This document shows positions 7,119-35,505 of a stretch of DNA of 35,505 nt, piece after piece. The notes under the pieces were generated by a model. It had not been told where the DNA came from and made no database searches. It was given only the letters and a program-made list of their open reading frames with translations. Both the position numbers and the translations under genes were made by a program. Every line of letters begins with the position of its first letter. The stretch's first letter is position 1. The stretch covers positions 1-35,505 of IMG/VR virus record IMGVR_UViG_3300030101_001612; one strand, given 5' to 3'. Source of the stretch: a virus.

Positions 7119-8108
7119 TTAAACTTTTATTTTCGCTAGAAGTGCGTTAAAAAACGCTTCTTCTTTGTCCTCTACTTTATTTTCAATTACAGCAGGGTCT
7201 TCTTCAGTAGAGATTTCAGTTCCCCTAGCATCTGCTTTACTTACTAAAGCATTAAGTCTTTCAACCTCCTCAGATAAAGTAGCTTTTACTCCTTCTAATT
7301 CTGTGATTGACTCATTCATTGTTGCAACCTTTGCTTCAAAATCTGTTAGTTTTGCGACTATCTCGTCATTATCAGCAAGAGTAACTTCAACTTTTTCAGC
7401 CTCAACCTCAACATTATCTTCTTTTACTTTTGCAATAATGCTTTCAACTTTAGCGTCAAACCAATTTTTTAATTCTTCGGTCATTTTTTTAGTCTTTAAA
7501 TTAATACTCAATTTACTTTGTATTTCCTCATTTGTAATATTTTTAAATTTGGAAACATCATATTTGGCTGCCACTTTAATAGCATCCGAGATAGAATCAA
7601 CAAAACCTAAATTGTAAGCCTCATCAGCATTTAACCAAGTTTCTTCATCCATCATATTTTTAATCTTTTCATATGAAAGATTTGTTTTTTTGACATAAAT
7701 GTCTGCAATTTCTGCACTAATCTTATTTAAAAGGCTTGCTGTCTTTTCTAAGTCTTTAGCCTCTCCCATTGCACCACCCCAAGCATTATGTATCATAAAC
7801 AGAGAGTTCTCAGCCATTATTATTTCATCTGCAGCGAGTGCTATAACACTACCCATACTTGCAGCTATTCCTTCTATATATACTGTAGTTTTGTATTCTC
7901 TTTTTCTTAACACATTGTAAATAGCCATACCTTCAAACACATCACCACCTACACAATTAATATGTAGATTCATAGGCCTTTTCTTGTAGTTTCTTATTTC
8001 AGAAATAAAACTTTTAGCATTTATATTGCTAGAGCCTATTTCATCAAATATGTAGACATCTACAGGGTTTGTAGACGTACTAGCTTTTACATCATACCAT
8101 TTCTTCAT
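7119..8108 (-). CDS. Prohead protease (ClpP/S14-like) with C-terminal scaffold-like region
   Basis: Residues 1-190 form a ClpP-like domain: HINCVGGDVFEGMAIYN, then GIAASMGSVIALAADE with the nucleophile S84, MIHNAWGG with H107, and MMDEETWLNADEAYNLG, where D154 may complete the triad. Residues 209-329 are charged and predicted coiled coil (FEAKVATMNESITELEGVKA and onward), typical of a capsid scaffold. The protease cleaves scaffold and head proteins during maturation. An internal ATG at 7484 (MTEELKNW), with an A-rich upstream, could give a separate 121-residue scaffold. The promoter-like box TATTTTTG ends only 5 nt before ATG 8108, so the mRNA may be leaderless. Confidence 0.87.
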   Translation of the reverse strand: MKKWYDVKASTSTNPVDVYIFDEIGSSNINAKSFISEIRNYKKRPMNLHINCVGGDVFEGMAIYNVLRKREYKTTVYIEGIAASMGSVIALAADEIIMAENSLFMIHNAWGGAMGEAKDLEKTASLLNKISAEIADIYVKKTNLSYEKIKNMMDEETWLNADEAYNLGFVDSISDAIKVAAKYDVSKFKNITNEEIQSKLSINLKTKKMTEELKNWFDAKVESIIAKVKEDNVEVEAEKVEVTLADNDEIVAKLTDFEAKVATMNESITELEGVKATLSEEVERLNALVSKADARGTEISTEEDPAVIENKVEDKEEAFFNALLAKIKV

Positions 8109-8112
8109 AATG

Positions 8113-8156
8113 CAAAAATATTTTACAGTTTTGAAAAAATTGCGAAGTTTTTGGAA
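8113..8156 (-). promoter_or_regulatory. Putative late promoter, site A (protease/capsid genes)
   Basis: On the minus strand TTCCAAAAACTTC (8156 to 8144) is followed after exactly 23 nt by TATTTTTG (8120 to 8113), a match to the Bacteroidota -7 consensus TAnnTTTG. The same motif with the same spacing occurs at 22624-22667 and 26173-26216. It fills the 54-bp gap upstream of the prohead protease. A TTTG -33 box is absent at normal spacing, which suggests an activator binds the 13-bp motif. Confidence 0.65.
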
Positions 8157-9011: not shown

Positions 9012-12000
9012 TTAAATTGTTGCTTCTGCCTCTAGTGTTTGTACAGTTTGTTGTGTTGTGGTTATGTCAGATTCTACAACAAACACTCTTTGAGAATTTG
9101 TGTTTACTGAGCCTGCGTTAAACTTTTGTTGAGCAAAAGATGGCATATTTAAAAGACCACCATCTGCAAATCTTACGCCACCACCTGCTTCATTCATAGC
9201 TGATAACTGACCTCTAAACATAGCTGTACTTCTTTTATTTATAACAGCCTCACCTCCTTCAAGCTCTACTACTCTACCCCCTACTGCAAACTTTTCACCA
9301 CCCTGAGCATGAGACCTTCCATGAACCATTCCTCCTTGTGCAAAAGTTTCATCTACCACTCCACCATGCTCACCTTTAAATCTCATAACTCTACGAATTA
9401 TTGCCATTGTTGCTATGATTGCTGCAATATTAAATGGAAAAGGTATAGCCATAGCACTACTTAGAATACTAGATATTGCTTTTGGTATTATACTAGCTAT
9501 GTCAGCAACAGTACCTGCTATTGTAGATGTTGTAGATACGTTTTCACTAACACTTTCTTTTATGTTAGATGCTGTTTGTGTATTTGTTACTACAATGTCT
9601 GCAGCTTTTGCAGCATTTTGTTTTAAAATACCTAAAGTTCTTAAACTTTCTTGTACTCTTAAAGCTGCCTCTACAGTAGTAGCTATTTGTGATATCTTTA
9701 TACCTGCTTCTTTTACAAAGTTTAATTTTTCGTTATCTCCTGCTAATCCTTGTATAGCAGAACCAAGCCTACCTATTTCTGAAACTTGTTCTTTAAAACT
9801 TTGCATTTGTTGTTCTTGCAGCCTTCTGTTACTTGTTGCTATTTGCGTATCAAGATTCATAACATTCATAGCATAATCTTCGTACAACTGTCTTTTACCA
9901 TTTAGAAAATCTACTTCAAGTTGCAACAACAACTCTTTACCCTCTTGTGTTAATTTACCATTTATAGTGTTGTTTGCTATAATATCTTCTTTCTCTTTAT
10001 TAAATTTATCTTGTTGTAATTTTAATTCATCATTAATAGTGTTTTGTCTTTTTTGTAATTCTATATCTAATAATTGGGTTTTAATTTCTAAAATTCTTTT
10101 TGCATTTGTTGCTGTAGGTTTTAAAGACTTTAACTCTTCTTGTAAAATATCTCCTCTTGATTTTAGAACTGCGTCTCTATAACCTTCTTCTGAAAGTTGA
10201 TTGTCAAGCAACTGTTGTTTTACGATATTTAAAGCCTCTTTTGTTTTTTTAGCCCAATCAGTAACGATGGTTTCATCACCACCACCACCACCACCATCAC
10301 CACCACCTGTATCTGCACCAAATACAGTCATAGCATCTAATCCTAATTCATCTATTAGTTCTGTATATGATTGTCTTAAACCTGCTAAAGCATCATCTGC
10401 ATCATCTGATGTTGCTATTAAATTATTAATAGTTTCTCCTATACCCTGAGAAAAATCAACATTATACTTTTCAAAAATACTCTTTAATCTTTCATTAGTT
10501 GCGTCAAAGTTTTTTTGAGTTTGTAGCATCAAACTAGCAGAATTTCTCATAGCAATATCAGTATTAGGAACATTACCAACCAAACGATCAAATTCCATAT
10601 CTGCTAAATCTTCATTAGTAATATTTTCGCCAACTGCTTTTCTTAATTCTATAAGTGCAAGCCTTGCTGTAGCTGCTTCAGAAGTTATTGTACCCATCCT
10701 ATCTTTAAAACCTTCTGCTATTGCCTGTTGCATCATTGATTTTGTCAAATTATTCATAGCAACAGTTAAATCATCTATAGATGTTTTTTCATTAATTAAA
10801 GCTTGGTCGTTATCTTTTAGCTCATCATTTAAGTTTCTTATCAGTATTGCTGCTTGACCTTTAAGACTATTATAAACCTTTTGATTTGTTTCAGTATCAT
10901 CTAAAAGATTACCCTCCTCATCAAGCATTTTATTCATTTCTTTTTTTAGCTCAATGAGTTGCTCAAACTGTACTTTAGTTTCTTCTGACTCTTTGTTTGC
11001 TTCTTTAAATACAGTATCTAATTGTTTTTGTGATTCTGTTAAGCTGTCTGTAGCTTCTGTTACTTCATCTGTTTCGTCTTTCCACAAACCAAAAAAGTTT
11101 AGTATTTCAGGAAGAAAAGCTAACAACAAACCAACACCTGACCTAGCCATTAGTTTTTTTACTGACATTGCTAGACGATTTATACCACCTGTTAAAAGAT
11201 TTGTTACAGGCACTAATTTTATTTTTGCTAATCTTAACAAGCCTAATCTTTTTGTGTAAAGCTCTATAGCTTTTGTTTGAGCAATAGTTCCAATTCTAAA
11301 CAATGCAATAACTCTAATTAACTTGCCTAAAAACTTTATTGTATCAGTTATGGTTTTGCTATTTTCAGCAATAGTGTTAAAAAAGTTTGCTGCTCTCTCT
11401 ACTGCCTTTTGCATACCTCCTGCAAAATCTTTCATTAAAGATATTGAAACACCCTGTAGTGCTGATTTAAGTTTAAGGAAGGCTCCTTGTAAAGTATCAC
11501 CTACAAGAGCAGCCATTCTTGCTCCCTCCCCATTTGCGTCTCTTAATTCATTTCTTAAAGCTATTGTACCATCTGCAGTTGTAAGCATTTGCTCAAAAGC
11601 TGCTGCTTGTCTTAAATCTACAACCTCCATAATATCAGCCATACTACCACCTTCTGCTACAAACTGTTTCATTGCAGGCACTAAATCATCTAAAGAATGT
11701 ATAGTTTTACCAAACCTCATAGAAAGCTCTGATGTAGGGTCTTGCATTTTAAGTAATATATTTCTTAAAGATGTACCTGCTATAGAAGCTTCAATACCTG
11801 AATCTGATAGCTTTGCCATAATAGCTGCTGTATCTTCTATAGAAAAACCTGCTGCCTTTGCAATCGGTGCAACTTTAGTCATACCTGTACTCCACTTTTC
11901 TATATCTAAGGCAGAACTCGCAAAAGACACTGTCATAACATCTACTACTCTTTCTGTTTCTGCTGCATCTAAACCAAAACCTCTTACAGAAGCACCTGCA

Positions 12001-21498: not shown

Positions 21499-22190
21499 CA
21501 AGCTTTGCCTTTTTTCACCGAATACATACTGAAAAGTGTCAGCAATTTTTGATTTTGATTGGTCAAAAAAAAAGCGAACTCAAATACTTTGTCCATTGTT
21601 AATTTTTTAAATTTTTCTGTTTTTTCAGGTATCAATTCATCATCAAATTCTTCTCCATTCCTTCTACAAAGTATTGCCATTTGTTGAGGTAACACATCAA
21701 ACCTACCATTTGTAAACTGCTCAACACTTTTTTCTAATTGAGTTGTTTCTATAAAATCTCCAAAAGTATTGTCTTTTAAAAATTCTTTTGGAAAATAATA
21801 TGTCTCACCTTCACAATCAAAACTGTTTATGCCTTGTGGCTCATATTCTTTTGTTAAATAATTTATTACATCTAAAACTTTATTTACATCTTCTATTTTT
21901 GTTTTTTTAACATGTTCCTTTTTCATACCTGTTACATAGCTAAAAATATCTTGATTTAACAACATTTCATTCTCAAATTCTGCGTCTTGCAGTATTTTTT
22001 CGTAATAATCATTGTCTTTATATGTTTCTTCTATGTAGTTTTCTTTTAATTCTGCAGATTTTGTATGTTTTTTGATTATTTGCAACAAGTCTGTGTACCA
22101 TTGTACAGTCATATCCTTCCAATCTGTTGGAATTTCAATATCTGCATATTCATTGCTCTCAATTTCTTTAATTCTAACTGTTAAGCTCAT
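21498..22190 (-). CDS. Tail assembly chaperone (gpG-like), putative
   Basis: 230 residues. The N-terminus IEIPTDWKDMTVQWYTDLLQ followed by a helical centre (LLNQDIFSYVTGMKKEHV) and the end (FDVLPQQMAILCRRNGEEFD, then KVFEFAFFLTNQNQKLL) match the pattern of Bacteroidota phage tail-assembly chaperones. These start with a W-x-D-x-T strand and end in a helical AILxR block. It is unusually far from its expected client: the tape measure lies 9 kb further on. A run of six A (21510-21515) five codons before the stop is positioned for a -1 frameshift into the next gene. Confidence 0.6.
   Translation of the reverse strand: MSLTVRIKEIESNEYADIEIPTDWKDMTVQWYTDLLQIIKKHTKSAELKENYIEETYKDNDYYEKILQDAEFENEMLLNQDIFSYVTGMKKEHVKKTKIEDVNKVLDVINYLTKEYEPQGINSFDCEGETYYFPKEFLKDNTFGDFIETTQLEKSVEQFTNGRFDVLPQQMAILCRRNGEEFDDELIPEKTEKFKKLTMDKVFEFAFFLTNQNQKLLTLFSMYSVKKGKA
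21509..21516 (-). other. Candidate -1 frameshift site in the tail chaperone pair
   Basis: The minus strand reads GTG AAA AAA GGC AAA GCT TGA. A one-base slip back after the second AAA continues AGG CAA AGC TTG ATG and enters the frame of the 79-residue gene without a stop, joining the two proteins. The heptamer G AAA AAA is not the ideal X XXY YYZ, so any efficiency is uncertain. Confidence 0.4.
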
Positions 22191-22602
22191 TTGTTTTTCT
22201 TTTTATTTTAAGTAATCTCTTTTGTATTTCATCTTTTGTTTTTATATCAGTCAATATATCAGAAGTTTCCCCTACAAAATCTAGTGTCTTTTCAAAAAGA
22301 AGTTCACTTAGTTTTTCAATATGCTCACAATTTCTTTTATTTTTTATACCTGTTAAAAACCCCATACTAGAATACATAATTAAATTAGGTATCATATATG
22401 CCCATTCATTTAACCTATCATTTGTCTTTACCATTTTTTTAAAAGCATTGACGTAATTGACTATGTTGGCTAAAATTTCGTTATAATCACAAAATTTATC
22501 AGAATTATAATCTTCTGTAGCTTCATAAATCACGCTTTGTATAAACTTCATGTATTTTTCAAGAAGTTTGGCGTGTTTTTTATTTAAGCTATACATTTTC
22601 AT
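22174..22602 (-). CDS. Hypothetical protein after the terminase (142 aa)
   Basis: Unrecognised helical protein, rich in Lys and Asn (LEKYMKFIQSVIYEATEDYN, AFKKMVKTNDRLNEWAYMIP, KRLLKIKRKTNELNS). I place the start at ATG 22602 (or ATG 22596) rather than the upstream TTG 22626, because that codon lies inside the -7-like box of late promoter B. The 3' end overlaps the chaperone gene by 17 nt. It would be the first gene of a transcript beginning after TerL and could be part of tail assembly or a late regulator. There are no cysteine or membrane motifs. Confidence 0.6.
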   Translation of the reverse strand: MKMYSLNKKHAKLLEKYMKFIQSVIYEATEDYNSDKFCDYNEILANIVNYVNAFKKMVKTNDRLNEWAYMIPNLIMYSSMGFLTGIKNKRNCEHIEKLSELLFEKTLDFVGETSDILTDIKTKDEIQKRLLKIKRKTNELNS

Positions 22603-22623: not shown

Positions 22624-22667
22624 CAATATTATAATTTTTTTTAGTATAAAACTAGAAGTTTTTGGAA
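22624..22667 (-). promoter_or_regulatory. Putative late promoter, site B (tail genes)
   Basis: On the minus strand TTCCAAAAACTTC (22667 to 22655) is followed after 23 nt by TAATATTG (22631 to 22624), one mismatch from TAnnTTTG. Upstream it shares ATATKCTCAYT with site C at 26173. It lies in the 50-bp gap after TerL and would start the tail-gene transcript. Confidence 0.6.
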
Positions 22668-22678
22668 ATGAGCATATT

Positions 22679-24136
22679 TTAATTAAAATAAACTATTTTA
22701 CTTCTGTTCCACATATTTTTATTTATTGCCATAACTAAACAATCTACCATGTCATCGTGTTTTGCAGAAGGAAATTTTACAAGCTGTTGTATAAACTCTT
22801 CGTTCCATTTTCCTGCTAACAAACTTACTCTTCCTGATTCTAAAGTTGCAGATATGTCCTGAACTCTTGCAACTTTGTCTTTTGATGGTGGCTTATCTTC
22901 TCTTACATTCAATCCTGTTTCTTTTTGTAGTGTTTGAACAATAGACTTTCCTGATGCCTTTGGTTCTACATAAATTCTACTTCTGTTTGTATATCCGTTC
23001 TTTTGCACCCATTGAGGTATGAATTTTACCAAATCAGGAAACTCCTTATGTACATTTATACAATCAATGATTTGCCATCTATTATTTTTGTAAATGTATG
23101 CTAAAAGTGCAGAAGGGTCATTCTTTTCGTTAGATGTATATGCAGGGTCAATCACAAAATCAACTGTTGTTTTTTCTCCAATCTCCATTAATTTATATTT
23201 ATCTATCTTTAGCCATTCTGATTTTATCATTCCTGAGTTTAGAGGAGTAGGTGTTTGCATAAGCTGACCTGCATAACCATAGCTTCCCAAAGCTTGTTTA
23301 TAATCTTCTAGTATATCTTTGCTAAATCTATCTGTCCAAAAAAGACCATTATTATCATATTTATCTTGTAGTGATTTTGGTTTGACATCATTTGATAATT
23401 CTGCAGGTATACATATATGTTTATATTTTAATCTTGTGTCATTACCATACAATAAAAAGCCACTTAAATCGTTATCATGTATTCTCTGCATAATAACTAT
23501 TCTGACACCTGTTAAAGGATTATTTAACCTTGAATAGAATGTTGTTCTATACCATTCATTTGCATTTTCTCTTTCTATCTCTGATGCAGCATTTTGGGGA
23601 GATACAGGGTCATCTACCAACAAAAAATCTCCTCCCTGCCCTGTAACTGTTCCTCCTACACTTGTCGCCCTTCGCACCCCCAAAAAATTATTCTCATATC
23701 TTGATTTTAGGTTTTGATCTTTTTTTATGTGAAACACTTCACCCCATCTATCCTTAAACCATTTTGAATTTATTATATCTCTACTTCTAGTTGAGTGTTC
23801 TATAGAAAGTTCTGCAGAATATGAAGCTGTTATAAATCTAAATTTTGGGTTTCTAATCCAACTCCATACAGGAAACATTACTGTTACTAAAAGAGACTTA
23901 GTAGAACGAAAGGGTATATTTATAATTATATCTTTCGTTTTTGGTTTGTTTGCTGTTATTCTTTCTGCTTCCTCTTGTAAAATATCACATAGATATTTAT
24001 GATGCCAATTAGTAGAAAGCTCAATACTAGGTTCAACGATATGCCAAGCTTTTTTAAAAAACTCATAAAAAGATAATTCGCATAATTTTTTCTCTAGTGC
24101 AAATTTTAGTGCTGCATCATTAGCTGTTGAGGTCAT
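22679..24136 (-). CDS. terL: Terminase large subunit
   Basis: 485 residues, normal length. The ATPase half has a degenerate Walker A (IPFRSTKS, residues 74-81), the Walker B FLLVDDP with catalytic acid, and a motif-III region (IVIMQRIHDNDLSGFLL). The nuclease half has VIDPAYT, IYVEPKASGKSI and FPSAKHDDMVDCLVMA, supplying the metal-binding acidic residues of the RNase H-like fold. It translocates and cuts phage DNA at the portal. The first residues overlap the small-subunit gene by 17 nt. Walker A lacks the glycine of the classical GKS/T form, with R-S-T-K-S in its place. Confidence 0.93.
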   Translation of the reverse strand: MTSTANDAALKFALEKKLCELSFYEFFKKAWHIVEPSIELSTNWHHKYLCDILQEEAERITANKPKTKDIIINIPFRSTKSLLVTVMFPVWSWIRNPKFRFITASYSAELSIEHSTRSRDIINSKWFKDRWGEVFHIKKDQNLKSRYENNFLGVRRATSVGGTVTGQGGDFLLVDDPVSPQNAASEIERENANEWYRTTFYSRLNNPLTGVRIVIMQRIHDNDLSGFLLYGNDTRLKYKHICIPAELSNDVKPKSLQDKYDNNGLFWTDRFSKDILEDYKQALGSYGYAGQLMQTPTPLNSGMIKSEWLKIDKYKLMEIGEKTTVDFVIDPAYTSNEKNDPSALLAYIYKNNRWQIIDCINVHKEFPDLVKFIPQWVQKNGYTNRSRIYVEPKASGKSIVQTLQKETGLNVREDKPPSKDKVARVQDISATLESGRVSLLAGKWNEEFIQQLVKFPSAKHDDMVDCLVMAINKNMWNRSKIVYFN

Positions 24137-25669: not shown

Positions 25670-26041
25670 TTATGATTGTTGGCAATTCATATAAATTATA
25701 CACAAACCTTGTGATATTTCTATTCTTTTTATGTCAGCCATAATTTCTATGCCTGCATCAAAAATAACACCTCCCTGATTGGTATTTATTTGATTTGTAT
25801 ATGCGTCATCTATATTGTTTGCTTCAAGAAAAGTAACTGTACTTTTTTGCAAGAAAACAACTTTCCAACCATGATGAGGAGTCTCAGCAACACCTGCACG
25901 AAATGTTCGTATAGGTTCAAAACCATATCTTCCTGATAAAATAACACTATTAAAACACTTTCCATGATTCTCATAAGATAAGCTAGCATCATATATTGGT
26001 GCTTGATTATTGTTTATGTCAGGATTAGGATGATAAGGCAT
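25670..26041 (-). CDS. Hypothetical protein, first gene of the late strand (123 aa)
   Basis: Unrecognised. It starts MPYHPNPDINNNQAPIYDAS and holds a compact beta-like body (FNSVILSGRYGFEPIRTFRA, HHGWKVVFLQKSTVTF) ending in IEISQGLCIIYMNCQQ. No transmembrane or HTH element is apparent. It is the first gene after the 525-bp noncoding stretch that follows the bidirectional terminator. A degenerate copy of the late-promoter layout lies just upstream (26058-26101). It may be a small virion protein because it precedes head/packaging genes. Confidence 0.6.
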   Translation of the reverse strand: MPYHPNPDINNNQAPIYDASLSYENHGKCFNSVILSGRYGFEPIRTFRAGVAETPHHGWKVVFLQKSTVTFLEANNIDDAYTNQINTNQGGVIFDAGIEIMADIKRIEISQGLCIIYMNCQQS

Positions 26042-26057
26042 AATTTATATTTTTTTA

Positions 26058-26101
26058 CAAATAAATAAAATTATATTCCTATATCTACGCAATTTCAAGA
26101 A
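26058..26101 (-). promoter_or_regulatory. Degenerate late-promoter-like site before the first late gene
   Basis: The minus strand has TTCTTGAAATTGC (26101 to 26089), 8 of 13 matches to TTCCAAAAACTTC. After 23 nt comes TTTATTTG (26065 to 26058), one mismatch to TAnnTTTG. It would start a transcript about 10 nt before ATG 26041. The match is weak enough to be chance in this AT-rich DNA; it is listed because the spacing equals that of the three strong sites. Confidence 0.25.
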
Positions 26102-26131
26102 ATTTTACTAACTACCACATCTTGATAACTG

Positions 26132-26146
26132 TTATGAAATTGAATT
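26132..26146. repeat. 15-bp direct repeat, copy 1
   Basis: TTATGAAATTGAATT is repeated exactly at 26353-26367, 221 bp away. Both copies are in the control region between early and late genes, either side of promoter C. They could be regulator binding sites; in AT-rich DNA a chance pair cannot be excluded. Confidence 0.4.
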
Positions 26147-26172
26147 TGTTTCCATTTATATTATATTCTCAC

Positions 26173-26216
26173 TTCCAAAAACTTCTTGAAAATATATTTT
26201 AAATATCATACCTTTG
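26173..26216 (+). promoter_or_regulatory. Putative late promoter, site C, pointing along the plus strand
   Basis: TTCCAAAAACTTC (26173-26185) is followed after exactly 23 nt by TACCTTTG (26209-26216), a perfect TAnnTTTG box. It is the best of the three copies yet is directed against every recognised gene. Transcription would begin near 26223 and end at the bidirectional terminator (26568-26613), giving an RNA of roughly 390 nt. Confidence 0.65.
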
Positions 26217-26289
26217 ACTTCTTATAGAATACGCTGTTGCTCATATCGCAACTAGCATATTTGATAACCTTATAATAAAATCATACAAT

Positions 26290-26358
26290 ATGTTTAAGTT
26301 TAGATTAGGCAAACTAACTATACAACTAATACCTCCTAAAATAACATACAAATTATGA
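26290..26358 (+). CDS. Tiny plus-strand ORF (22 aa), doubtful
   Basis: The frame MFKFRLGKLTIQLIPPKITY plus KL begins about 67 nt after the start expected from promoter C and ends TGA inside the second 15-bp repeat. The peptide is basic and amphipathic. No clear ribosome site is visible apart from A-rich sequence. It may be a real micropeptide on the plus-strand RNA, or chance. Confidence 0.25.
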   Translation: MFKFRLGKLTIQLIPPKITYKL

Positions 26359-26367
26359 AATTGAATT
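26353..26367. repeat. 15-bp direct repeat, copy 2
   Basis: Exact copy of TTATGAAATTGAATT at 26132-26146, overlapping the stop of the tiny plus-strand ORF. Confidence 0.4.
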
Positions 26368-26567
26368 AGAATTTAGCCTGTGTATGTAGAAATGGTTAAG
26401 GAATATATATATTCAATATTACGGAATTTTGTTTTTTGCACTTTTTAACCTTTTTTTTAATAAAATCTAGTTTTTTTTTGCAAAATGTTTTTTTTAAATA
26501 AAAATCAAACTTTTTTTTTGTTTGTTGATAAGTTTTTGATTTAAAACTTGCATAAAAAAACAAAAAA

Positions 26568-26613
26568 AGCAGATAATAAAAAGGTTTTTAAATAAATTAT
26601 TTTACTATCTGCT
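26568..26613. terminator. Bidirectional intrinsic terminator between early and late regions
   Basis: AGCAGATAATAAAA (26568-26581) pairs with TTTTACTATCTGCT (26600-26613), 13 of 14 positions, around an 18-nt loop. An A-run precedes and a T-run follows on the plus strand, so each strand has a stem plus U-tract. It would stop minus-strand transcription leaving the early genes and also stop the plus-strand RNA from promoter C. Confidence 0.8.
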
Positions 26614-26626
26614 AATTTTTTTTGCA

Positions 26627-26658
26627 TTGATCAACAATCATTTTTGTTTTGATCAACA
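26627..26658. repeat. Two TTGATCAACA sites 22 bp apart (possible operator)
   Basis: TTGATCAACA occurs at 26627-26636 and 26649-26658, start to start 22 bp, which places both on the same face of the helix. Each contains the palindrome TTGATCAA. The pair lies beside the terminator at the end of the early region. A repressor or activator dimer could bind it. Confidence 0.4.
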
Positions 26659-26787
26659 CCTTTTTCTTTAATTAGCACCCTAAAAAAATTAATAATATTG
26701 CAATTATTGTAATTGTAAAATCGTTAAAGGGTATTTTATTAAAGTTGTTAAAATCTGTTTTTCATAGGCGTGTAGTTAAGTTAGTAA

Positions 26788-26934
26788 TTATTTTAAATCT
26801 TCAATTTTGTTTTGAAGTTCATCAACTAAAGAAAGTATTTTTTTAATTTCTTTGCTTTCTTTGTTGTTTTGTATAATTAGATAATAAATATTATCTAAAT
26901 ATTTTATTAAATCTTTTATTATTATTTTATTCAT
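26788..26934 (-). CDS. Small helical protein (48 aa)
   Basis: A 48-residue frame with ATG at 26934, 25 nt after the stop of the large gene upstream. It reads MNKIIIKDLIKYLDNIYYLI, then QNNKESKEIKKILSLVDELQ and NKIEDLK. Heptad-like spacing of Ile and Leu suggests a coiled coil or a small dimer. It is the last gene of the early transcript before the terminator. Codon content is AT-rich like its neighbours. No family recognised; small regulators or host-takeover peptides are common in such positions. Confidence 0.5.
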   Translation of the reverse strand: MNKIIIKDLIKYLDNIYYLIIQNNKESKEIKKILSLVDELQNKIEDLK

Positions 26935-26958
26935 AGGTATATTTGTTTAATGAGTTGT

Positions 26959-28092
26959 TTATATGTCCAAATCTCCGTTGTAATGATATTCGCCTGAATA
27001 ACTGTTGTAAACTGCGTTTTCGGTTCTACAGCTCTCTCCTCTTTCCTCAATATAGGTACAGCAATCGTCGCACAGCTCTTCCTCTTCTAGTTCAGAATAA
27101 TGAATAGTATCTTGGTCATATCTATCTCCACAACAATCACAAATATATGTATCTCCTCTTGTATAGTCTCCAGATGTTGATTCTAAAATTATCTCTCTTT
27201 TGTCTTCGTCCGAATCAAAACAAAAATTATTTTTTAGCTCTTCCCCGAATCGAAATGTGTCTAAGTATGGATAATAATCTAATCCGTTAAATGTGTCAAT
27301 ACTTATTTGAACTGTAAAAGTTGGATAAGATTTGCTTTTTAAATATTCTTTGCTTGCATTGTCTATTTGCCCAGCTTTTAAAGTGTCTTTTAGATATTGC
27401 TTAATATGTGTGTATGAATAACAATCTAAGCTATCTAATTTTAAAGCTCTTTTTACTTTATTATATAGTTTACTTTGTAAATACGCTTTATGCGAGTTTT
27501 CAAAATCTTTAGAAATATAAATTCTATCTAAATAATATTTTTTTTGCTTTGTTTCTTTGTCTGTCTTTATCCAGAGAATTGCTCTAGCTATTACGACTTT
27601 TCCAACTTTAAGACCTACAATTTTTGTATTTACATTTATAAAATTTTCGTAAATCTCAAAATAATTAGAGGGCTTTTTGTCCATACATGAACCTGTAGAA
27701 ACATAAATATATTTTTCTAATTCTTGCGAATAAAACTTTTTTAAATCATTCTCAAAAAATAAATCATCGTTTAAAATAAAATCTTTTCTGAGTTGTTTGT
27801 CTATATCTTGACTAATTCTCTCTATTTTAACTGTTTGGTCTTTAAACATACTAGAAAGAAGTTTATTAATTGAGGTTCTAGTGAAATATTTTTTTCTTTG
27901 TTCTGCCGTTCCTTTAATATTTACGTTTGCATACTCTTTTAAGCTGTTTATCTTTTCTTGCTTAATATAAGAGACTTTTAGAGGGTCTACTTGACTAACT
28001 CCTAAATATTTAAAATCTTTAAAATTTTCGCTTCTAGTGGCGAAAATATCTAGGTAATTAATAGTTTTTAAAATTGTGTTTTGTGCTTCCAT
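26959..28092 (-). CDS. Conserved phage protein with C-terminal zinc-finger motif (377 aa)
   Basis: The middle contains STGSCMDKKPSNYFEIYENF, then VGLKVGKVVIARAILWI and YYLDRIYISKDFE. This matches a phage family I know only by its SCM...ARALLW...LDRIY pattern; its function is unknown. The C-terminus has a treble-clef-like cluster, CDCCGDRYDQDTIHYSELEE followed by CDDCCTYIEERGESC, likely to bind one or two zinc ions. It then ends in VYNSYSGEYHYNGDL. It is the largest gene after the origin candidate and is expressed from the promoter at 28377-28407. A nucleic-acid-related role is a guess from the zinc finger. Confidence 0.65.
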   Translation of the reverse strand: MEAQNTILKTINYLDIFATRSENFKDFKYLGVSQVDPLKVSYIKQEKINSLKEYANVNIKGTAEQRKKYFTRTSINKLLSSMFKDQTVKIERISQDIDKQLRKDFILNDDLFFENDLKKFYSQELEKYIYVSTGSCMDKKPSNYFEIYENFINVNTKIVGLKVGKVVIARAILWIKTDKETKQKKYYLDRIYISKDFENSHKAYLQSKLYNKVKRALKLDSLDCYSYTHIKQYLKDTLKAGQIDNASKEYLKSKSYPTFTVQISIDTFNGLDYYPYLDTFRFGEELKNNFCFDSDEDKREIILESTSGDYTRGDTYICDCCGDRYDQDTIHYSELEEEELCDDCCTYIEERGESCRTENAVYNSYSGEYHYNGDLDI

Positions 28093-28117: not shown

Positions 28118-28348
28118 TTAAAATATAAATTTTGTAATAATATTTGATATTAAAACGACTATTGCAACGCTAAAAAAACTGATTGCAATAGTATTAATAA
28201 AATCATTTATTTGCTTATCTTTTGGGCTAAGTGTTTTTTCCGTTGCGTAATCTCTAAAATTATTTTTGCAAAAGAATTGCACCATTTCGGACTCGTTTAA
28301 AATTAAACTTTTTCTAGTTGTGCGACTTGTAACTTTGTAATATAACAT
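28118..28348 (-). CDS. Small membrane protein (76 aa)
   Basis: The first 48 residues are soluble and basic (YYKVTSRTTRKSLILNESEM). A C-terminal hydrophobic segment, about residues 52-75 (TIAISFFSVAIVVLISNIIT, then KFIF), is long enough to span the membrane once. A tail-anchored protein with a cytoplasmic head fits an early phage product acting on the host envelope or superinfection. It is the first gene after the operator-flanked promoter at 28377-28407. No family is recognised. Confidence 0.6.
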   Translation of the reverse strand: MLYYKVTSRTTRKSLILNESEMVQFFCKNNFRDYATEKTLSPKDKQINDFINTIAISFFSVAIVVLISNIITKFIF

Positions 28349-28376
28349 AATATTTTTTTTTGATTAATAACTTGAG

Positions 28377-28407
28377 CAAAGATAATTAAAAAATCTATAT
28401 ATCAAAA
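28377..28407 (-). promoter_or_regulatory. Promoter P3 (TTTTG, 18 nt, TATCTTTG)
   Basis: The minus strand reads TTTTG (28407-28403), an 18-nt spacer, then TATCTTTG (28384-28377), matching the Bacteroidota vegetative consensus and identical in its -7 box to the promoters at 32611 and 35249. The start of transcription would be near 28370, 22 nt before ATG 28348. The first 17-bp repeat overlaps its -33 box, implying repression or activation there. Confidence 0.75.
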
Positions 28408-28443
28408 TAATTTATATATAAATATTAAATAATTTATATATAA
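28405..28443. repeat. Two perfect 17-bp repeats over promoter P3
   Basis: AAATAATTTATATATAA occurs at 28405-28421 and 28427-28443, 22 bp apart start to start (two helical turns). The first overlaps the -33 box of P3. This is the geometry of a tandem operator. Being A/T only, it could also help DNA melting at the origin candidate. Confidence 0.55.
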
Positions 28444-28550
28444 TTTATTAACACATAAATTGTTTATAACTTTTATATAAAAAATTTGTATATGTTTTTT
28501 TTATTTTGTAATTTTGTATCTCATATAAAACACCCCTTATACAACAGACT

Positions 28551-28752
28551 TAGCAGTTTCACAGCCTTAGCAGTTTCAGGCAGTTTCTGTGATTTTCAAA
28601 AAAATATTTTTAGAAAAATTATTTTGTAAAAAAATTTTTAGAAATAAAAAAAATAAAAAATAAAAATAAAATATAATATTTTGTGATATAATATTGATTT
28701 GCTTTATAAATAAAACATTAACCCTTTATAAGGCTCTAGCAGTTTCACAGGG
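28551..28752. repeat. Iteron-like GCAGTTTC repeats
   Basis: TAGCAGTTTCACAG occurs at 28551 and 28737, TTAGCAGTTTCAGG at 28567 and a shorter GCAGTTTC at 28580. The first and last copies are also preceded by similar CCCTTATA / CCCTTTATA sequence, giving imperfect units of about 32 bp. They stand out by their GC content in a stretch that is otherwise nearly all A and T. Confidence 0.6.
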
Positions 28753-28803
28753 TTTTTGATTTTGATCATCTTATATTATTAAGTAACTTTGTTTTTTAAT
28801 CTA

Positions 28804-29004
28804 TTAAACTTTAACGTATGTTTTACGTCTTAGTATTTTGTTTATTATTGACTGACTAACCTTATACTTTTTAGCTAAAGCTTCTTGCGTGTACTTACCT
28901 GTATCGTATTGATTTCTAATGAGTTGTGCTTCTTCATAAGTAAATTTTCTTTTTGCGTAACCACCACCACGCATATCTTTTCTGTCGTATATATTTATGC
29001 TCAT
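28804..29004 (-). CDS. Small HTH DNA-binding protein (66 aa)
   Basis: After a glycine-rich start (DRKDMRGGGYAKRKF), residues 23-62 form a helix-turn-helix: TYEEAQLIRNQYDTGKYTQE, then ALAKKYKVSQSIINKILRRK. This is the pattern of small HTH units found alone in phages or attached to HNH homing nucleases, where the A-x-x-Y-x-V-S turn sets the recognition helix. No nuclease domain is present. The gene overlaps the VRR-NUC gene by 4 nt (ATGA-type) and lies right next to the origin candidate, so it could bind the repeats there. Confidence 0.7.
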   Translation of the reverse strand: MSINIYDRKDMRGGGYAKRKFTYEEAQLIRNQYDTGKYTQEALAKKYKVSQSIINKILRRKTYVKV

Positions 29005-32966: not shown

Positions 32967-33215
32967 TTAAAAGGGCAAATCATCATCATTTGATTTGTCT
33001 GCTGTTGTTTCTTTTGGTGGCTCATAGGTATTCTCGTAAGCATAATGAGTTGCACCCTTTTCAGATGGCTCTCTCCTTTCTGCTATCGTGATATTTACCC
33101 AACCTCTTTTAGATATTTTTTGCAAATCTTCTACTTTAAAACTTGCATTAAATAATTCTCCATATTGCGTAGTAACTTTTTTTATACTACTTGCTACATA
33201 ATTTTTATCTGACAT
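32967..33215 (-). CDS. SSB-like protein with DDDLPF tail (82 aa)
   Basis: A small protein with one beta-rich core (SSIKKVTTQYGELFNASFKV, SKRGWVNITIAERREPSEKG, HYAYENTYEPP), an acidic linker (TADKSNDDD) and the C-terminal DDDLPF. That tail is the protein-interaction tip of bacterial single-stranded DNA-binding proteins, used to recruit repair and replication enzymes. The core is shorter than a full OB-fold SSB (about 110 residues), so it may be a reduced phage SSB. It overlaps the DnaA domain IV-like gene by 11 nt and precedes the structured RNA. Confidence 0.7.
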   Translation of the reverse strand: MSDKNYVASSIKKVTTQYGELFNASFKVEDLQKISKRGWVNITIAERREPSEKGATHYAYENTYEPPKETTADKSNDDDLPF

Positions 33216-33642
33216 ATTTTTGTAATTTTAATTTATAATTATTTTTCATTTCTATCAACTCGTTCAATCTTTTAGAAAGCTCTTCCATTTTTCTTTCTAC
33301 TGATTTTACCTCATGCACATAAAAGTTTGCATCTAGCATAAGTATTCTTTCTATATCTTCATAATTGTTTTTATAAGATTTTAAAATCTTTACAAACACA
33401 TCATGTTGCTGAATGTTATGTATTATTGTTGCATGATTTTTTTTAAGTATAAAAGCTATGTCGTGATAAGTAAGCTTAAAAATATTTCTTAACAAACCAC
33501 TATATAATCTTCTAGCATCTACAACCTTTCTAACTCTACTTTTGCCTTCAATAGTAGACCAAGGCAGGTCATATCTTTTGCAAATCTCTGCTTTTATCTT
33601 TTCATCTCTTTCTCTTGTGAACTCTATCTTATACTTGTCCAT
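33205..33642 (-). CDS. DnaA domain IV-like DNA-binding protein (145 aa)
   Basis: Residues 33-95 resemble the DnaA C-terminal domain: GKSRVRKVVDARRLYSGLLR, NIFKLTYHDIAFILKKNHAT and IIHNIQQH. These correspond to S-R-x-R-E-I-V-D-A-R-R, L-T-x-x-x-I-G, and the DnaA-box signature D-H-T-T-V-x-H. No AAA+ ATPase part exists. The C-terminal helix (EVKSVERKMEELSKRLNELI) is probably a coiled-coil dimer. It could bind a phage origin, or occupy host DnaA boxes and interfere with host initiation. Neighbours are a Cro-like HTH protein (overlap 14 nt) and an SSB-like protein. Confidence 0.75.
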   Translation of the reverse strand: MDKYKIEFTRERDEKIKAEICKRYDLPWSTIEGKSRVRKVVDARRLYSGLLRNIFKLTYHDIAFILKKNHATIIHNIQQHDVFVKILKSYKNNYEDIERILMLDANFYVHEVKSVERKMEELSKRLNELIEMKNNYKLKLQKYVR

Positions 33643-33940
33643 TTTTATTCTTTGTTAAGTAATCTATTTCTACATAATCTTGTTCACCATCTACGTCAAA
33701 GTTATCTTTTAAATCAACTTCAATAATGTCTATGATATCTTTAACATCAACATTTAAAAACTTAGCTAATCTTAACATATGATAATATCTTATCATATAT
33801 GGACAATCAATATATTTGTCTATTGTAGAGCCTTTTATGTTAAGTATTCTACCAAATTGTAGTTTGGATATACCTCTAATTCTAAGAATAGCTTCTAGTT
33901 CATTCCTAGAACTTTTTACTTTATTATAATCGTTTTTCAT
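33629..33940 (-). CDS. Cro/XRE-like HTH protein (103 aa)
   Basis: Residues 10-60 form an XRE-type HTH: RNELEAILRIRGISKLQFGR, then ILNIKGSTIDKYIDCPYMIR and MLRLAKFLNVDVKDIID. The final V-D-V-K-D-I is the usual end of that fold. The C-terminus is acidic (DNFDVDGEQDYVEI). It is likely a regulator of the early region and may bind one of the operator-like repeats here. It is co-translated with neighbours through 4-14 nt overlaps. Confidence 0.72.
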   Translation of the reverse strand: MKNDYNKVKSSRNELEAILRIRGISKLQFGRILNIKGSTIDKYIDCPYMIRYYHMLRLAKFLNVDVKDIIDIIEVDLKDNFDVDGEQDYVEIDYLTKNKNGQV

Positions 33941-35372: not shown

Positions 35373-35505
35373 CTAAAAATAATGTGTTAATCTTGCTACT
35401 TGTCCTTTTTCTTTATCGTGGACAAATGCCTCACAGGCTTTTGGAGCACCTGTAAAACCTTTTCGGCTGTGCCAACTATCTGCTGCACTAGGACTTCTCA
35501 TGTAT
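35373..35505 (-). CDS. Metallophosphoesterase, C-terminal part (continuation of 1-1052)
   Basis: The right-hand end of the circular gene. It encodes the end of the phosphoesterase (AFVHDKEKGQVARLTHYF then TAG at 35375-35373); bases 35407-35505 duplicate 1-99. Joined at the circle the gene is 1086 nt including the stop (1052 + 34). Confidence 0.9.
   Translation of the reverse strand, partial: YMRSPSAADSWHSRKGFTGAPKACEAFVHDKEKGQVARLTHYF
35407..35505. repeat. 99-bp terminal direct repeat, right copy
   Basis: Exact copy of bases 1-99; see the left copy for interpretation as circular assembly overlap. Confidence 0.95.

Follow-up and report, generated by a model that had tools for sequence, protein, structure and literature searches.

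The DNA analysed here, called the window throughout, is a virus record of 35,505 nucleotides. It ends in a 99-bp direct terminal repeat (positions 1-99 and 35407-35505; two relatives have repeats of 97 and 99 bp), and the repeat implies that the window is probably a whole circularised assembly. A gene for a ClpP-like head maturation protease opens its head/portal/lysis block, while the tail/tape-measure block, which extends down to position 9012, is led by a gene for a 142-aa protein; the gene for the large terminase subunit (TerL) lies outside both blocks. The 13-mer TTCCAAAAACTTC occurs exactly three times in the whole window, at the coordinates that an earlier note on this DNA had reported: before the protease gene (site A), before the tail block (site B) and, on the opposite strand, in a 0.9-kb gap that holds no ORF of 60 codons or more on that strand (site C; Table 1). 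All three copies fall outside the called genes, as that note had said, and such sequence makes up only about 10.6% of the window.

Table 1. Coordinates of the three sites and of associated features in the window
Feature	Position	Strand	Remarks
Head maturation protease (ClpP-like)	7119-8108	-	PHROG 94/133, E 4e-72 and 9e-69; first gene of head/portal/lysis block
Site A -7 box TATTTTTG	8113-8120	-	4 nt before head-protease ATG (8108)
Site A box TTCCAAAAACTTC	8144-8156	-	about -48 to -36 of predicted start
142-aa protein, function not assigned	22174-22602	-	first gene after site B; leads tail/tape-measure block
Site B -7 box TAATATTG	22624-22631	-
Site B box TTCCAAAAACTTC	22655-22667	-	between terL stop codon and tail block
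Large terminase subunit	22679-24136	-	PHROG 38, E 7e-99; upstream of site B, outside A/B blocks
Site C box TTCCAAAAACTTC	26173-26185	+	opposite strand, in 26041-26959 gap
Site C -7 box TACCTTTG	26209-26216	+
5' hairpin of predicted site C transcript	26222-26267	+	invariant 15-mer core TTGCTCATATCGCAA at 26237-26251; covariation
22-codon ORF MFKFRLGKLTIQLIPPKITYKL	26290-26358	+	after hairpin; clade 1 only, synonymous changes
Candidate activator, 66-aa HTH protein, basic N-terminal arm	28804-29004	-	next to VRR-NUC/resolvase-like nuclease gene; putative
Alternative candidate regulator, 103-aa Cro/C1-type HTH protein	33629-33940	-	putative

At each site, exactly 23 nt separate the 13-mer from a box resembling the Bacteroidota -7 element, and here the earlier note was right about spacing and placement but not about the common form of the box: because site B reads TAATATTG, the shared form is TANNNTTG rather than TANNTTTG. 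The same note had judged that the 13-mer should occur far less than once, and a first-order Markov model agrees, with 0.0054 copies expected on both strands. By itself, however, the threefold occurrence is unremarkable, because 14 different 13-mers reach that count in this AT-rich window; the spacing, the positions and the conservation of the sites are what matter. The absence of the usual -33 TTTG holds for the 36 nt before each of the three -7 boxes, but it is weak evidence, because a -33 element is not evident in Flavobacterium promoters (PMC6847099).

The spacing was examined in IMG/VR by a fixed-pattern scan, which gave 57 stretches, and by a variable scan that allowed 10-40 nt between the box and the -7 element. 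Together, the two scans yielded at least 61 matches in viral contigs with a spacing of 23 nt (N23) and, among the matches listed, none at N22 and two at N24. The sole other peak among the matches listed, at N28, was ruled out as a promoter class: it belongs to one protein-coding family in unrelated phages (contigs among L062-L166), a widespread coding sequence (CTGAAATAGTTCTGTTTCCAAAAACTTCAGCTTC...) that holds the 13-mer by chance. Four stretches from the fixed-pattern scan (L013, L030, L034 and L052) were chance matches in other sequence. The same variable scan of cellular genomes, with one genome per bacterial and archaeal species, produced a flat spacing distribution, and this difference upholds the proposal that the class is phage-specific. 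Peak heights are not comparable between the two viral scans, because their sampling differs, and it is the near-absence of N22 and N24 beside a large N23 class, together with the sequence context, that carries the argument. Three site classes recur in the scans: class A accompanies the protease start, class B follows TerL and class C comes with a conserved downstream sequence. In four contigs, B and C share one divergent arrangement, with about 3.2-3.5 kb between them.

Independently of the motif, 81 sites in 31 related phage contigs, which fall into five clades, were located by anchoring on genes or on the RNA hairpin described below. Protease relatives were gathered by protein search, and the TerL stop codon served as the starting point for finding B sites, so that neither was selected on the motif. 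The register is kept in nearly all anchored sites, in relatives with as little as 54% protease identity. The earlier note had named a lack of conservation of motif and spacing in related phages as refuting its reading, and its reading clearly survives this test: the register is conserved, while the sequence of the box is specific to the clade. Clade 1, to which the window belongs, has TTCC[AT]AAAACT[TG]C. Clade 2 mostly has GTAnnnAAATTAG at A, GTTTAAAAACTAT at B and GTAAnAAAATTAT at C; clade 3 has TTCCAAAAATTAG or TTCCACAAATTAG at A, TTCTAAAAATTGT at B and TTCCAAAAACTAT at C; clade 4 has TTCCATTTTTTTC-like boxes at A and B alike, and a search for site C in this clade found none; and clade 5 has TTCCTTTAATTAG, TTCTAGATATTAG and TTCTATATATTAC at A, B and C, respectively. 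The -7 element conforms to TAnnTTTG and reads TANNNTTG at most of the 81 sites, with TAnCTTCG, TACCTTCA, TACCTTCC or TACCTTTA at some C sites. Exceptions to the register are a degenerate site B in G034, a site B without most of its spacer in G035, and the clade-3 A boxes, which are mostly at N24.

The changes in the box are coordinated within genomes. Over the 81 sites, boxes at different sites of one genome are identical at 10.7 of 14 positions, against 7.2 for the same site across clades and 7.1 for different sites across clades. The true pairing of boxes by clade was the best of 2,880 permutations, in which the units were the five clades, split by eye on box and protein identity without a tree. 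In controls taken from the flank, the spacer and the downstream sequence of the first 73 sites, within-genome similarity was not above that between clades. By the time the C boxes of clades 3 and 5 were read, the pattern was already known from the other clades; both boxes fitted it. When near-complete genomes were scanned with the matrix of their clade, each had two or three high-scoring sites, with a wide gap to the next. Co-variation among unlinked sites of one genome is what is expected of a class served by a trans-acting factor, and the concerted, clade-by-clade change of the box across all sites of a genome is the mark of a single phage factor of this kind. As a sequence-based argument for a dedicated factor, this is much stronger than the observations with which the earlier note began. 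The co-variation would look no different if the protein at the box were a repressor.

Structural genes lie downstream of all A and B sites, and the placement of A and B before the protease/capsid and tail blocks, already pointed out for the window, is repeated in the relatives. Orthologues of the 142-aa gene follow TerL in most genomes; in G006 another gene stands in this position and the box is kept. At site A, the protease ATG lies 4-6 nt after the -7 box in 30 of 30 scored genomes. Because transcripts in Flavobacterium start 4-5 nt after the -7 element (PMC6847099), the site A mRNA is predicted to be leaderless or nearly so. In Bacteroides thetaiotaomicron only about 3.7% of leaders are shorter than 10 nt (PMC7366714), and the prediction is of a conserved leaderless mRNA in a phylum where such mRNAs are rare (PMC7366714, PMC6847099).

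Site C faces no long reading frame, and we infer that it drives a conserved transcript without a long ORF rather than a protein operon. The predicted transcript begins with a hairpin whose sequences were fetched with the 15-mer TTGCTCATATCGCAA; the invariance of the 15-mer is thus partly a product of selection, whereas the stem outside it was not selected. Among 17 sequences from clades 1, 3 and 5, the hairpin has 27 double-changed cells against 9.1 +/- 2.8 in shuffles (0/500), and a covariation score of 0.246 against at most 0.096 when the partners are slid; RNAalifold agrees. Since phylogeny is lost in the shuffles and covariation is also seen in inverted repeats of DNA, an RNA is supported mainly by the conserved predicted promoter in front of it. 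In fold energy, the transcript as a whole is ordinary (z -0.24), and the case for structure is the covariation. The clade 2 version is about 210 nt long, and its outer stem co-varies at one pair. In all, an invariant hairpin core, UUGCUCAUAUCGCAA, and a covarying stem are present in four of the five clades despite their diverged promoter boxes. On balance, we think it slightly more likely than not that the switch of the two virion operons also drives a previously undescribed structured phage RNA of about 150-250 nt beside the terminase genes. Such a late RNA would serve packaging, replication or the change from early to late expression.

Several searches and observations concern the same region. 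An Rfam search of the site C transcript gave nothing above the gathering score and only sub-threshold chance matches, a search for antisense targets found no consistent target, and the region has no match in cultured relatives. The 22-codon ORF has a frame-preserving insertion in G004, is lacking in the other clades and has no family match. The conserved element after site C spans 26222-26430 (+) in the window and, for example, L310:10214-10425 in clade 2, where it has the further invariant blocks TTTATAAAATTGAACTT and ACGG. In the clade-3 contig L354 (about 374-450), three near-repeats of AGCAACTAACGATTTT lengthen the 3' arm of the hairpin; this is a recent tandem expansion inside the element. 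A separate motif, TTAT[AG]AAATTGAA[CT]TT, has two or more copies in several genomes (26132 and about 26360 in the window; also G022, G294, G289, G027 and others) and in one case (L563) immediately precedes an early gene that has a TATATTTG box. Instead of being an RNA module, it may be where a second regulator binds as to an operator.

We consider it likely that A, B and C form a phage promoter class at which the host polymerase acts on the -7 box together with a phage activator at the upstream box. In this mechanism, host RNA polymerase with its primary sigma factor (of the sigma-ABfr type) would read the -7 box TANNNTTG, while a phage-made DNA-binding protein, probably from an early or middle operon, would bind the 13-14 bp box at about -48 to -36. 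The centre of the box is at about -42, around which class II activators sit, and the bound protein may stand in for a weak or absent -33 contact in a class II-like manner. Positions are numbered with the T of the -7 box taken as -12 (PMC6847099). The activator would switch on operon A (protease, capsid, portal and lysis), operon B (tail) and the conserved transcript without a long ORF from site C. The sites, their register and conservation, the co-variation of boxes within genomes and the covarying hairpin are seen directly in the sequences; that the sites are promoters, where transcripts start, that the factor is an activator and that it acts late are inferred from them.

Every well-covered clade retains two of the window's HTH proteins (Table 1), and a tentative choice for the activator is the 66-aa protein, which we hold to be plausible but not yet probable. 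It has an invariant N-terminal RKDxRGGG...RKF followed by a tri-helical HTH; the final helix varies from clade to clade. Late regulators lie beside resolvase genes in other phages, and the nuclease gene next door recalls this arrangement. The distances of both HTH proteins track box distance when structural-gene divergence is allowed for (partial r 0.59 for the 66-aa and 0.57 for the 103-aa protein), but the box is tracked even better by an SSB-like protein (32967-33215; partial r 0.72) and by TerL (0.70), so the correlations do not single out the activator. Box distances follow the early-region genes and TerL, not the late genes downstream of the boxes, and the box therefore evolves with the early/TerL side rather than with the genes it precedes. 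The 66-aa protein scores below the cut-off for the Mor/C family (PF08765; 16.2 bits against 24.9 required, E 0.011). A Hin/Gin-type DNA-binding domain in this protein is no more than a lead, with only a weak PHROG match (phrog_125, E 0.005), no support from PDB sequences and no significant fold match. We also note four plus-strand copies of TAGCAGTTTCA, at 28551, 28568, 28737 and 30652, of which three are in the 28348-28804 gap beside this gene.

Other explanations of the box can be weighed against an activator. The polymerase itself might read it, through a phage sigma factor or a remodeller of sigma region 4 that recognises a new -35-like element, with no separate activator. The box is indeed placed where the -35/-33 contacts end, a host-type -7 box is retained, and the early region is rich in small phage proteins without assigned function. 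Yet a -7 box that keeps the host consensus makes a full alternative sigma factor unnecessary, the box, centred at -42, lies about one turn further upstream than a -33 contact, and among the 20 early-region proteins scanned there is no sigma-model match that attains its cut-off, the nearest being the weak score of the 66-aa HTH protein against region 4 (15.2 against 24.1 bits); we regard this explanation as unlikely. Somewhat more improbable still is that the box is an operator, by which a phage repressor silences the three promoters early so that relief, not activation, turns them on. The Cro/C1-type protein would be suited to this, being kept in all well-covered clades and tracking the box about as well as the 66-aa protein. 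Repressor sites, however, usually overlap the -7/-33 elements or the start and tolerate shifts, and it is activators that are typically served by a single, non-palindromic box placed upstream of the -33 region at a rigid distance.

The 13-mer could also be a DNA site for packaging, replication or recombination that is near promoters by accident, as one copy adjoins the terminase genes and a hairpin-forming sequence. This is very improbable, given that orientation, -7 box and rigid 23-nt spacing are kept at all sites and that each site is directed towards either the start of a gene or the conserved hairpin. A chance repeat, which the fourteen thrice-occurring 13-mers might have suggested, is already refuted by the viral scans and the anchored sites; the expected count of 0.005 and conservation in dozens of independent contigs speak against it. 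A promoter class with a phage activator remains the reading that we prefer.

The -7 box and the nearest cultured terminases, those of Croceibacter and Cellulophaga phages among them, suggest a host in the Bacteroidota, probably a marine flavobacterium. No cultured relative is close: the best cultured match of TerL is 43% (Croceibacter phage P2559Y), and protease matches in cultured relatives are all below 60%; P2559Y itself lacks both a match to the protease and a box that could be recognised behind TerL. A prophage search of 250 Flavobacteriaceae genomes found no related terminase. In the literature searched we found no late-promoter class for lytic siphoviruses of Bacteroidota, nor a counterpart in a Bacteroidota phage, and gene timing in such siphoviruses appears not to have been described before. 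In the present case, sequence suffices to set out an entire regulon, with three sites, a fixed geometry and a box whose spelling drifts with lineage. The lineage-specific boxes make the activator findable by pairing boxes with HTH proteins across clades, and they offer an orthogonal set of promoters and activators for Bacteroidota genetics. The site C element points to a new family of phage RNAs.

Finally, the class can be compared with known promoters. It shares with the Bacteroidota primary promoter (TTTG / TAnnTTTG; PMC7366714, PMC6847099) the -7 element TANNNTTG and a predicted start 4-5 nt downstream, but the -33 TTTG of that promoter is absent from the 36 nt before the -7 box and a 13-14 bp phage box is present instead. 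T4 middle promoters combine a MotA box with the host -10 element through sigma appropriation by AsiA and MotA (PMC2988021, PMC6755090). In T4, as proposed here, the upstream sigma contact gives way to a phage box set at a fixed distance, and a host -10-type element is retained. The MotA box, however, is 12 +/- 1 bp from the -10 element and centred at -30 (PMC2988021), compared with 23 nt and about -42 here. No homologue of MotA or AsiA was found by PHROG or Pfam matching among the window proteins scanned. T4 has nearly 60 middle promoters, compared with about three per genome in this class; its box, single and non-palindromic like the one described here, is read by a small phage activator that acts as a monomer. 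Class II activator-dependent phage promoters are served by Mu C/Mor, lambda CII and P2 Ogr, in which a small HTH protein binds at or just upstream of -35. Those systems resemble our proposal in placing late or regulated operons under a small phage HTH activator, but the box described here is single rather than an inverted repeat, is paired with a Bacteroidota -7 element and changes wholesale between clades. By analogy, then, the three sites would work like a phage activator-dependent promoter class, to which the MotA boxes of T4 are nearest in logic, while position, number and protein families differ.
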